In this document: positions 16,394-19,099 of the stretch, piece after piece
Layout: the number at the start of each line of letters is the position of its first letter
Position numbering within the stretch: the stretch's first letter is position 1
Assembly (NCBI GenBank): GCA_023259135.1
Contig: JAHFQX010000030.1
Location: forward strand, 1-33,104
From: Betaproteobacteria bacterium
GTDB taxonomy: Bacteria; Pseudomonadota; Gammaproteobacteria; Burkholderiales; JAHFQX01
Reading direction: 5' to 3'
Length of the DNA stretch: 33,104 nt
Translations under genes and position numbers: made by a program
Notes under the pieces: generated by a model
The model's database searches: none
Told to the model about the DNA's origin: nothing
The model's input: only the letters and a program-made list of their open reading frames with translations

Positions 16394-17020
16394 TTAGGCG
16401 GCGGACTTGCGGCCCCGCCCGGCTTTGCCGGGGGATGGGTTTTTTGGGGTTGGGGCCGTGCTGTCTTCCATAGCTGCATCGCGGGCCGCGGAGTTTGGAG
16501 GAGACTGGAATCCGGTGAAAAGATTTTTGGTTTGATCCTGAAGGCGCTGCTGCATTTCCAAGAACATGGCGGCGCTTTGCTCCAAATAGCTCCCCATGAG
16601 ACGCTGCACGGTGGGGCCTTGCAAGGAGATGAATTGACGCCAAGCGTCGGCGTTCAGGATATCGGTGCCGTACAGGCGCTTCGATTGATCTTGAAAGCGT
16701 TGCTGCATTTCGATAAAAGTCTGAATATTTTTTTCCAGATAAGCGCCCATCATGCCCTGCAAAGCATGCCCGTAATAACGGATGATTTGGGCCAGCACGT
16801 CGCGGGAGAACATGGGGGATCCGCAGCTTTCCTCCTCCAGGATGATCTGCAGCAGGATACTGCGGGTCAAATCCTCGTTGGTTTTGACATCCACTACGCG
16901 GAACTGCACTTCTTCCATGACCAAGCTCTTGATATCGGTCAAGGTGACGTACTTGCTCGTCGCGGTGTCGTATAAGCGGCGGTTCGGATATTTCTTGATG
17001 AGGCGCTGGGTTTCGCTCAT
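16394..17020 (-). CDS. phaR: Polyhydroxyalkanoate synthesis regulator PhaR
   Basis: 208 residues. The N-terminal DNA-binding domain starts with the signature LIKKYPNRRLYDTATSKYVTLTDI (about residues 7-30). Two tandem copies of the PHB-accumulation regulatory repeat follow: one contains MMGAYLEKNIQTFIEMQQRF, the other LMGSYLEQSAAMFLEMQQRL. The tail is basic and low in complexity. PhaR proteins bind both PHA granules and DNA and repress phasin genes and often their own gene. No phaC, phaP or phaB is in the window. The start at 17020 has AAGGG upstream on the minus strand. Confidence 0.95.
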   Translation of the reverse strand: MSETQRLIKKYPNRRLYDTATSKYVTLTDIKSLVMEEVQFRVVDVKTNEDLTRSILLQIILEEESCGSPMFSRDVLAQIIRYYGHALQGMMGAYLEKNIQTFIEMQQRFQDQSKRLYGTDILNADAWRQFISLQGPTVQRLMGSYLEQSAAMFLEMQQRLQDQTKNLFTGFQSPPNSAARDAAMEDSTAPTPKNPSPGKAGRGRKSAA

Positions 17021-17101
17021 AAGACCCTTGGGAGTCCCTCAGGGAGGGCATAAACGGAAGGCCATGATACCCCAACCCCTGGGTTAGGCGCTATATTCGC
17101 T

Positions 17102-17142
17102 TCCCTTCGTTGCCTCTCGGAAGGCGGGCTTTCCGGAAGGGA
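17102..17142. other. Two-part hairpin upstream of phaR
   Basis: TCCCTTC (17102-17108) pairs with GAAGGGA (17136-17142), and inside it CGGAA (17118-17122) pairs with TTCCG (17131-17135). This gives 12 bp in two steps with a 9-base bulge. It lies 82-122 bases upstream of the phaR start, in its probable 5' leader, and has no T-run on either side. It may be an mRNA element or a protein site. Confidence 0.4.
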
Positions 17143-17156
17143 TCGGGGCTGTTACG

Positions 17157-17230
17157 GCAACGCACAATATTTTATTTAAAAAAAGCTTGACACCCTTTCC
17201 ATGTATCAGTATTATTCGATTGTGCGCTGC
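17157..17230. promoter_or_regulatory. 12-bp inverted repeat bracketing a strong promoter (candidate PhaR operators)
   Basis: The left site GCAACGCACAAT (17157-17168) and the right site ATTGTGCGCTGC (17219-17230) are inverted copies matching at 11 of 12 positions. Their centres are 62 bases apart and they enclose the A/T-rich element, -35, -10 and expected start point of the candidate RNA below. Each contains two GCA triplets spaced by two bases. Published PhaR operators are rich in TGC/GCA triplets, and phaR lies next door, so PhaR is the favoured binder; that is inference. Confidence 0.5.
17163..17215 (+). promoter_or_regulatory. Strong sigma70 promoter with A/T-rich upstream element
   Basis: TTGACA (17187-17192), a 17-base spacer and TATTAT (17210-17215) form a near-consensus promoter with a perfect -35. 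Immediately upstream, 17163-17184 is almost pure A/T with A- and T-tracts, like an UP element. Transcription would start near G17222. This is the best promoter match I found in the window. Confidence 0.85.
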
Positions 17231-17412
17231 GTCATTATATGATTCGATGGCGGGGCGGAAAGGTTGCAAGGGATTCGCTGCCTTAAGTCAAGGGGCGGAT
17301 TTCAAGGGGGCGGGAAACCTCGCCCGGTAAAGGCTCCTCCTCCTTTATTATAGGGTTCCTCACCTTATATAAAGGTTCTCCCCACCCGGTCTCCGGGTGG
17401 GGATTTTTTTTT
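17222..17412 (+). ncRNA. Candidate small RNA (about 190 nt) with C/U-rich anti-SD-like modules
   Basis: The unit is defined by the promoter at 17187-17215 and the terminator at 17380-17412. No convincing protein gene lies between; the longest ATG frame (17247-17330, 27 residues) lacks a Shine-Dalgarno. Near the middle, GGGCG (17308-17312) and CGCCC (17321-17325) form a hairpin with a GGAAACCU loop. Then come three related modules: AAAGGCTCCTCCTCC (17329), ATAGGGTTCCTCACC (17350) and AAAGGTTCTCCCCACC (17371). TAAAGG (17328-17333) can pair with CCTTTA (17342-17347), exposing CUCCUCCU in the loop. Alternatively, CCTTTAT (17342-17348) pairs with ATAAAGG (17369-17375), continuing into a stem with loop UUCCUCA. 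Such loops complement Shine-Dalgarno sites. It could instead be an attenuated leader of the channel gene 137 bases downstream. I recognise no known RNA family. Confidence 0.65.
17380..17412 (+). terminator. Strong intrinsic terminator
   Basis: CCCCACCCGG (17380-17389), a TCT loop and CCGGGTGGGG (17393-17402) form a perfect 10-bp stem, followed by A and nine T residues (17404-17412). The run lies only on the plus-strand 3' side. Since phaR points the other way, it can only end a transcript that starts in the same gap. Confidence 0.93.
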
Positions 17413-17548
17413 GCCTATCCGCCTTGTTCGCCTTGGAATCTCGGGATTGGCCGCGTCTCTCGTTTGCGTTCCGGTCAAGCGGGAGCCCCCGAGATATTCG
17501 CCCATTTCGTGCTAGAGTTCCAATGGAGATTCGGGTCAGGGAGGGGCC

Positions 17549-19099
17549 GTGGCCGGTGAAATAAGCTTTTTCTACCATTTGGCTGACGCCCTCGGCGGGC
17601 GGGAAATCCTGTATTCGTTGGCAGGTTCGTTGCTGGCTTGGGGTCTGACGTATCGCTTTCGCCCCGAAGATCGCGGCACTTTGTATCACACCTTGGGAGT
17701 TCTCGTTCTGGGTGTGATCGGGCTGGTCGTGGCCGCCACGACGGCTTGGCTGGGCTCGGCAGGGTTGGCCGGAGGGCTGCGGGAAGCCGCCGTCCTGGTA
17801 TTTGGCATCGGCGTCATCCGCCTGTTCGGCTTGTTGGCGTTTCGTCTGGTATTGCCGAGGCTGAGGATCGCACCGCCCCAGATTCTGGAAGATATCCTGG
17901 TCATCGTTGCCTACGCCGCTTGGGGGATGGTCCGGTTGCGCCACGCGGGCATGGATCTGAGCGGGATTGTCACGACTTCTGCCCTCATCACCGCGGTGGT
18001 GGCGTTTGCCATGCAGGACACCCTCGGCAATATCCTGGGGGGGCTGGCTCTCGAACTGGACAACTCCGTCGAGATCGGGGACTGGGTCAAAGTCGATGAT
18101 GTCAGCGGTAGGGTGATGGACATCCGCTGGCGTTCTACTTCGGTGCAAACCCGCAACGGCGAGACCGTGGTGATTCCCAACAGCTTGCTGATGAAGAGCA
18201 AGTTCAGCGTGTTGGGTCGGCAGGTTGGTTCCACCCTGCAATGGCGTCGTGCGGTCGGCTTCAACGTGGACTTGGCCACGGCTCCGGCCAGGGTGGTCGG
18301 CATCGTCGAGCAAGCCCTGCATGGCGCCCGCATTCCCCACGTCGCGGAAGACCCGGCGCCGAACTGCGTGTTGATGGATTTCGAAGCAGGCTATGGCCAT
18401 TACGTTCTACGCTACTGGCTGACCGATCCGGCGCTGGACGATCCCACCGACAGCGCGGTGCGGATCCACGCCCTGACCGCATTGCAGCGGGCCGGCATTC
18501 GCCTGGCCGTGGCGGAGTACCGCGTTCACTCGGTCAAGGAAGGGGAGAAGCACCGGGAGGAAGTCCGGCAGCGGGAATTGGCGCGGCGCCTGGAAGCCTT
18601 GGAACGGGTCGATTTGTTTTCCGGCTTGACCGGAGCGGAGCTACAGACCCTGGCCGGGCAGCTTTCCTTCGCTCCCTTCGCCCAGGGGGACATCATTACC
18701 CGGCAAGGAGCGGTGGCCCATTGGCTCTATTTGCTGGTGTCCGGGACGGCGGAGGTTTGGTTCGAGGAGCCTGGAGGGCAAAAGCGCTTGGTCAATACCC
18801 TGCAAGAGGGGAGCGTGTTCGGCGAAATGGGCCTCATGACCGGGGCTCCCCGCTCCGCCACGGTTATTGCCGGTACCGACGCGGCCTGTTACCGCCTCGA
18901 CAAGGCCGGGCTCCAGGAGATTTTGGAATCCCGTCCCGCCATCGCCGAAAACATCGCCGCGATTTTGGCGTCCCGCAGTACCGCCTTGGAGACCGCCCGC
19001 CACGCTGCCGAGGCCGCAAGCGGCATCGGTAGGCAGCGCTCCGATTTGCTGGAAAGGATTCGCGGATTCTTCCATCTTGGGAGTGTAGACGCGACATGA
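17549..19099 (+). CDS. MscS-type channel with C-terminal cyclic-nucleotide-binding domain
   Basis: 516 residues. Four or so N-terminal hydrophobic helices (about 15-150) lead into the MscS pore helix and beta domain (QDTLGNILGGLALELDNSVEIGDWVKV at 156-182, then TSVQTRNGETVVIPNS). A CRP-like cyclic-nucleotide-binding domain occupies about 352-460. Its phosphate cassette FGEMGLMTGAPRSATV (424-439) keeps Glu426 and Arg435, so nucleotide binding is plausible. It acts in the inner membrane, perhaps as a nucleotide-gated osmotic channel. The start is GTG 17549 after GGGAGG. It overlaps the next gene by ATGA. The 137 bases between the terminator and this start hold no other feature I can support. 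Confidence 0.93.
   Translation: MAGEISFFYHLADALGGREILYSLAGSLLAWGLTYRFRPEDRGTLYHTLGVLVLGVIGLVVAATTAWLGSAGLAGGLREAAVLVFGIGVIRLFGLLAFRLVLPRLRIAPPQILEDILVIVAYAAWGMVRLRHAGMDLSGIVTTSALITAVVAFAMQDTLGNILGGLALELDNSVEIGDWVKVDDVSGRVMDIRWRSTSVQTRNGETVVIPNSLLMKSKFSVLGRQVGSTLQWRRAVGFNVDLATAPARVVGIVEQALHGARIPHVAEDPAPNCVLMDFEAGYGHYVLRYWLTDPALDDPTDSAVRIHALTALQRAGIRLAVAEYRVHSVKEGEKHREEVRQRELARRLEALERVDLFSGLTGAELQTLAGQLSFAPFAQGDIITRQGAVAHWLYLLVSGTAEVWFEEPGGQKRLVNTLQEGSVFGEMGLMTGAPRSATVIAGTDAACYRLDKAGLQEILESRPAIAENIAAILASRSTALETARHAAEAASGIGRQRSDLLERIRGFFHLGSVDAT

Follow-up and report, generated by a model that had tools for sequence, protein, structure and literature searches.

A conserved stand-alone small RNA gene beside phaR that is probably repressed by PhaR and seems to derive from a phasin mRNA

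Between phaR and an MscS/cNMP channel gene (start, 17549), the 33,104-nucleotide stretch of betaproteobacterial DNA analyzed here (the window) contains a short transcription unit that an earlier reading of the sequence had proposed as an orphan gene for a new small RNA (sRNA). We asked whether this unit is a real sRNA gene, what might control it, and where it came from. Its predicted architecture held up. The plus strand carries a sigma-70 promoter at 17187 to 17215 (TTGACA, a 17-base spacer, and TATTAT; 11 of 12 consensus matches) and an intrinsic terminator at 17379 to 17412, consisting of an 11-pair stem (17379 to 17403) and nine T's (17404 to 17412), and phaR (16394 to 17020, minus strand) runs the opposite way, as claimed. 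Promoter spacing and terminator together predict a primary plus-strand RNA of about 190 nt (17222 to 17411). The claim that this interval holds no convincing open reading frame (ORF) was also confirmed: an ATG frame of 27 codons from 17247 lacks a visible Shine-Dalgarno sequence and stops just 5' of the conserved core, and a TTG frame of 47 codons starts 5' of the predicted transcription start. The 191-nt window RNA had a folding energy of -83.5 kcal/mol (z score, -3.67), and 0 of 200 shuffles were equally low. At a looser cutoff of 9 of 12 matches, a promoter scan found 2 in 2.6 kb versus 1.0 expected, and 4 terminator-like sites were found versus 3.3 expected. Because these counts are near expectation, promoter and terminator by themselves are weak evidence.

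Comparison with related genomes, proposed as a check in the original prediction, yielded a conserved, covarying 80-nt RNA. A DNA search of 100 relatives matched 12 genomes, including the window's own; nine of the other eleven matches were confined to the final portion of the query, and two (L010 and L012) that matched other parts were treated as chance. Ten pieces, from the window and nine relatives, could be aligned as UCCUCC-Y-CCUUUAU, a variable inner stem, AUAAAGG, and a terminator whose sequence varies while its pairing is kept. The core (17332 to 17411, plus strand) thus forms the final 80 nt of the RNA and consists of a CUCCUCCYCC (anti-Shine-Dalgarno) stretch, a covarying hairpin, and the terminator. 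No conserved counterpart of the 5' part (17222 to 17331) was found in these relatives; the genomes compared lie outside the window's own family, which bears on the conservation of both leader and regulatory sites. A covariance model of the core, R1, whose E values are rough, found a single strong copy in the window's genome (82.9 bits; E, 2.8e-20; next best, 0.46).

Across the order, R1 matched 50 of 399 genomes in 9 families at an E value of ≤1.1e-8, the window's included. At ≤0.01 the number was 147 of 399, with several weaker matches at places of the known family RF02278, and in a class-wide sample of 274 genomes it matched one at ≤1e-6, the window's own. Scanning named genomes for a sequence pattern yielded 39 loci, a set biased towards that pattern, of which 33 were confirmed by R1 and 6 were dropped for having no R1 match at an E value of ≤1e-4; their titles name Betaproteobacteria, Burkholderiales, Ferrovum or Ferrovaceae, unresolved Proteobacteria or Pseudomonadota, and one Lysobacter. 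In an alignment of 63 loci (50 distinct rows) that was fitted to the model, 92.4% of cells pair and 13 of 20 base pairs vary on both sides, with a covariation score of 0.357 versus 0.111 for shuffled and at most 0.071 for slid alignments. Both hairpins contribute: 8 of 13 pairs vary on both sides in hairpin 1 (17342 to 17375, plus strand; CCUUUAU...AUAAAGG around the variable inner stem), as do 5 of 7 modelled pairs in hairpin 2, the terminator. UCCUCC was invariant in all 28 distinct rows that had not been picked by the pattern scan; in the window it lies within CUCCUCCUCC (17334 to 17343, plus strand), the likely seed.

The loci also share their surroundings. A divergent phaR lies just 5' of the element in 59 of the 63 fetched loci. 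The phasin count omits the other four: two (L058 and L075) are truncated upstream, in L069 phaR lies 1.75 kb downstream, and L040 breaks the synteny, having a phasin but no phaR within its 3 kb. At 36 of the 59 loci the element would terminate the mRNA of a phasin, a granule protein, and at 23, the window among them, no phasin lies between; counted as 52 distinct stretches, 32 are phasin linked and 20 are not. The label orphan did not survive, since the unit is part of the phaR/phasin locus and has PhaR-type sites. Five more loci with weaker R1 matches (L117 to L121) have the phaR-phasin arrangement, and L116 and L122 follow a phasin in stretches where phaR was not found. With conservation, covariation, and synteny added to the lack of an Rfam match described below, the best reading of the window unit, a stand-alone sRNA gene as originally suggested, is supported at the level of sequence comparison.

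On a quick PhaR tree, in which several rows, the window's among them, have long branches, the phasin-linked or stand-alone state changes 7 times, and at least 5 changes are forced by well-supported branches. Within one family, a 128-nt stretch is 94% identical between L036, a stand-alone locus, and L033, a phasin-linked one. This stretch covers the element and approximately the final 34 nt of the phasin ORF of L033 with its stop codon, and it marks the L036 unit as a remnant left after loss of most of the phasin ORF. No leftover phasin trace was found in the window unit. The phasin of the window's genome, which has two PhaC proteins, lies elsewhere, behind phaA, and no second element was found there (R1, 11.9 bits). 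The sRNA unit seems to have arisen from a PhaR-controlled phasin mRNA through loss of its coding part. In the genus g81 (family f42, including Ferrovaceae-titled loci), no phasin and no PhaC were found in 5 of 5 genomes at an E value of ≤0.001. Four g81 loci (L042 and L046 to L048) keep phaR, both PhaR-type sites, and the element behind a leader of 59 to 71 nt; the fifth genome has an R1 match of 59.7 bits at a locus outside the fetched set. The one PhaR examined in g81, that of L042, has both Pfam domains, its PHB domain scoring 47.9 bits versus 115.7 in the window.

The presumed regulator, PhaR (PHB_acc_N, 102.2 bits; PHB_acc, 115.7 bits), is a sensor of the storage polymer polyhydroxybutyrate. 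At Ralstonia eutropha phaP1, PhaR is reported to bind directly 5' of the -35 box and around the start site, at the palindrome YTKNTGCRNYGCANMAR (PMC12849132), and the reported Herbaspirillum seropedicae PhbF site is TGNTGCN3GCAA (PMC3206438). The putative sites at the window promoter are placed much as at phaP1, which drives a phasin gene, whereas the window unit has no phasin. Putative site BS1 (TTACGGCAACGCACAAT, 17152 to 17168) lies 5' of the -35 box and BS2 (ATTGTGCGCTGCGTCAT, 17219 to 17235) lies over the start site, each with 3 mismatches to the published palindrome. In a survey where the promoter was chosen to maximize promoter plus site scores, a start-site palindrome with ≤2 mismatches was present at 57 of 59 loci (background as best of 17 offsets, 25 of 3,000). 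A second such palindrome lay 5' of the -35 box at 47 of 59, mostly 22 to 24 nt upstream, the search covering 30 offsets while the background is the best of 17. The survey included L028, whose promoter matches at only 8 of 12 positions. Window BS2 is positioned as in the relatives, and BS1 starts 35 nt before the -35 box, about one turn further up. Places with ≤3 mismatches number 42 in the 33-kb window; the chance of two at the BS1 and BS2 places, set from the relatives, is estimated at approximately 2 in 10,000. The phasin promoter of the same genome has sites with 2 and 1 mismatches at the usual places. The window is among the weaker operator cases, and its own degenerate pair is the weakest link of the proposed PhaR control; the sRNA call is independent of these operators. 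As a separate observation, the stand-alone copy L028 (also L007) lacks a good sigma-70 promoter and has a sigma-54-like TGGCAC-TTGC motif upstream.

Is the RNA a member of a known family? An Rfam scan of the window found no family at gathering score, and a permissive scan of 17100 to 17560 gave six weak matches, including PyrR at 26.8 bits. None was 6S, tmRNA, signal recognition particle RNA, or RNase P RNA, in keeping with the original prediction. RF02837 (anti-hemB) likewise has a CU-rich start and a terminator and had the best E value of the region (0.0009), and we rejected membership at 25.1 bits against a cutoff of 49.5. The nearest relatives in design are the 'toxic' double-hairpin sRNAs of betaproteobacteria, RF02278, which comprises NcS27 and others of Burkholderia cenocepacia, with S17 of Bordetella pertussis related. 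Both RF02278 and the window element are betaproteobacterial and have a CUCCUCC stretch, a hairpin, a terminator hairpin, and PhaR-type sites upstream (putative in the window, and at 35 of 50 RF02278 genes tested), and the window element has the RF02278-type layout of a double hairpin with a CU-rich stretch outside the stems. Membership was nevertheless rejected (22.1 bits against a cutoff of 50), and the best scores of its relatives were 28.0 bits among L002 to L011 and 30.7 for G308. We also rejected the idea of a copy of RF02278 on the basis of the low score, a different hairpin sequence, different neighbors (no phaR or phasin beside RF02278 in 12 stretches checked), and the presence of both types in single genomes, e.g., G038, G047, G080, and G091. 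R1 and RF02278 share many weak matches, and L122, in a phasin 3' untranslated region (3'UTR), is intermediate (37.4 bits with R1 and 39.4 with RF02278).

A search for RF02278 matched 136 of 300 genomes in the order at an E value of ≤1e-6, 113 of them above the cutoff and the window's genome not among them. RF02278 genes are also carried by the laboratory strain H. seropedicae SmR1. PhaR-type palindromes with ≤2 mismatches occurred within 160 bp upstream at 23 of 30 fetched RF02278 loci versus 4 of 180 controls (200 permuted palindromes: mean, 0.77; maximum, 8); three of the 30 (L163, L164, and L169) were already in an earlier set of 13 RF02278 places, where 6 of 13 had such sites. At 20 further loci, from 20 other genomes and 18 families, 12 had a site versus 5 of 160 controls (permuted: mean, 0.26; maximum, 3), which gives 35 of 50 combined versus 9 of 340 control windows. 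Where a site overlaps a TTGCA-like -35 box, as some do, the box can contribute matches. Of the 50 genomes tested, 42 have PhaR, and the sites follow it: with kinship ignored, a site with ≤3 mismatches was present in 40 of these 42 and in 1 of the 8 lacking PhaR (Fisher, 2.8e-6), one with ≤2 in 34 of 42 and 1 of 8 (4.3e-4), and one with ≤1 in 15 of 42 and 0 of 8 (0.044). Several PhaR-less genomes (L171, L178, and L188) keep the TTGCA-like box and miss the other half-site. From these comparisons, we consider it moderately probable that PhaR directly controls a superfamily of anti-Shine-Dalgarno double-hairpin sRNAs, made up of the phaR-linked family and most of RF02278, that phasin 3'UTRs are a birthplace of such genes, and that Ferrovum-like bacteria kept PhaR and the sRNA after loss of polyhydroxybutyrate (PHB). 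Such retention would mean that the circuit has a role beyond granules.

For the window itself, our preferred reading, to which we give a probability of roughly 0.7, is a trans-acting, stand-alone sRNA gene derived from a phasin mRNA, repressed by PhaR until PHB titrates it, and acting on Shine-Dalgarno regions. PhaR would repress the gene until titrated by PHB or another ligand, as for phasin genes, and the 190-nt RNA would then be made. It would probably be trimmed, with a cut near 17331, to a mature form of approximately 80 nt, by analogy with S17, whose 190-nt transcript RNase E cuts to 67 nt; S17 is reported to be an Hfq-binding RNA, enhanced by BvgA~P, that represses one target directly and is not toxic in the way of RF02278 RNAs (PMC11722255). 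With Hfq, the CU-rich stretch at 17334 to 17343 would pair with Shine-Dalgarno regions of metabolic mRNAs and block their translation while carbon is stored. In B. cenocepacia, CU-rich unpaired stretches of the double-hairpin RNAs are predicted to cover ribosome-binding sites, cells overexpressing NcS27 grow more slowly, and levels of ncS03, ncS05, and ncS27 are higher in biofilm and in glucose medium (PMC5688073).

Folding bears on this mechanism. The mean predicted probability that the CU stretch is unpaired in full-length RNA was 0.57 for the window and ranged from 0.07 to 0.96 over 19 stand-alone RNAs, versus 0.32 to 1.00 in 80-nt forms; for the first seven bases of the window stretch, it rose from 0.57 in the full RNA to 0.93 in the short form. 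In such models, the stretch is often partly paired at full length, which counts against our best explanation. When the seed was paired with 21 start regions from this genome, whose gene names we partly guessed, the duplexes ranked mscS first, nuoK second, and phaA third. Starts of phaB paired better than shuffled sequences (mean, -14.4 versus -9.8; n = 47), those of phaP slightly better (-9.8 versus -8.3; n = 16), and those of phaR no better (-8.3 versus -8.1; n = 37). Strong Shine-Dalgarno sequences explain such duplexes too, so the predicted targets are leads only. The strongest of the 21 duplexes (-23.5 kcal/mol) was with the ribosome-binding region of the MscS/cNMP channel gene beside the unit (17514 to 17556).

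Other readings account for parts of these data. The sRNA could be real and independent of PhaR, with the palindromes serving phaR's own promoter or arising by chance in the window. The close, divergent phaR fits this, as does a mismatch level that the window reaches at 42 places; yet in relatives the sites flank the promoter of the sRNA unit, and RF02278 sites track PhaR presence even though no phaR appears in the 12 stretches checked, and we regard PhaR independence as unlikely. Similarly improbable, in our judgment, is that the element is a strong terminator or 3'-end stabilizer left from a phasin mRNA, its transcript having no function. It does include a terminator and ends phasin mRNAs at most loci (36 of 59), but promoter and element are kept without a phasin at the other 23, UCCUCC does not vary among 28 distinct rows although it lies outside any stem, and four g81 loci keep the element in genomes where neither phasin nor PhaC was found. 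That the unit encodes a small protein of 27 codons from ATG 17247 is very hard to credit. The frame stops just before the conserved core, but it shows no Shine-Dalgarno sequence, some stand-alone leaders span only 33 to 74 nt, and stand-alone loci share no ORF, for which we rejected it as the main reading.

The preferred reading, a PhaR-repressed sRNA gene born from a phasin mRNA, combines known kinds of parts. The only case of PhaR control of an sRNA that we found described is MmgR of the alphaproteobacterium Sinorhizobium meliloti, which is reported to be under PhaR (AniA) repression and linked with PHB (PMC12542648). MmgR resembles the proposed RNA in this respect but is an alphaproteobacterial, 77-nt member of the alpha-r8 family (PMC9049629), and no Rfam match in the window corresponds to it. 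In titles and abstract openings among the matches listed by a literature search, none joined PhaR with RF02278-type sRNAs and no phasin-derived sRNA was described; the main text of PMC5688073, PMC11722255, and PMC10987360 mentions neither PhaR nor phasin, and PMC4603805 and PMC7011215 mention neither phasin nor phaP. The window RNA family, its origin, and the link between RF02278 and PhaR therefore look new. If correct, they would link carbon storage with posttranscriptional regulation of metabolism across a large group of bacteria, point to a regulator of RF02278 sRNAs, provide an example of an sRNA gene born when an mRNA loses its coding part, and bear on PHB production strains.

Three further observations concern individual loci. 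In seven RF02278 loci (L153, L171, L173, L178, L179, L185, and L188), the genes share another promoter-like motif, approximately ATATTAGANAATNCTAATA; their genomes mostly lack PhaR, which suggests a different regulator there. One genome (G022) has a second copy of the R1 element after another phasin-like gene (L116; G022:C3:2637-2713; 69.3 bits), with no phaR found in that stretch. Finally, L112 (G177) holds two tandem RF02278-like copies (45.5 and 44.7 bits) approximately 870 bases apart near a contig end.
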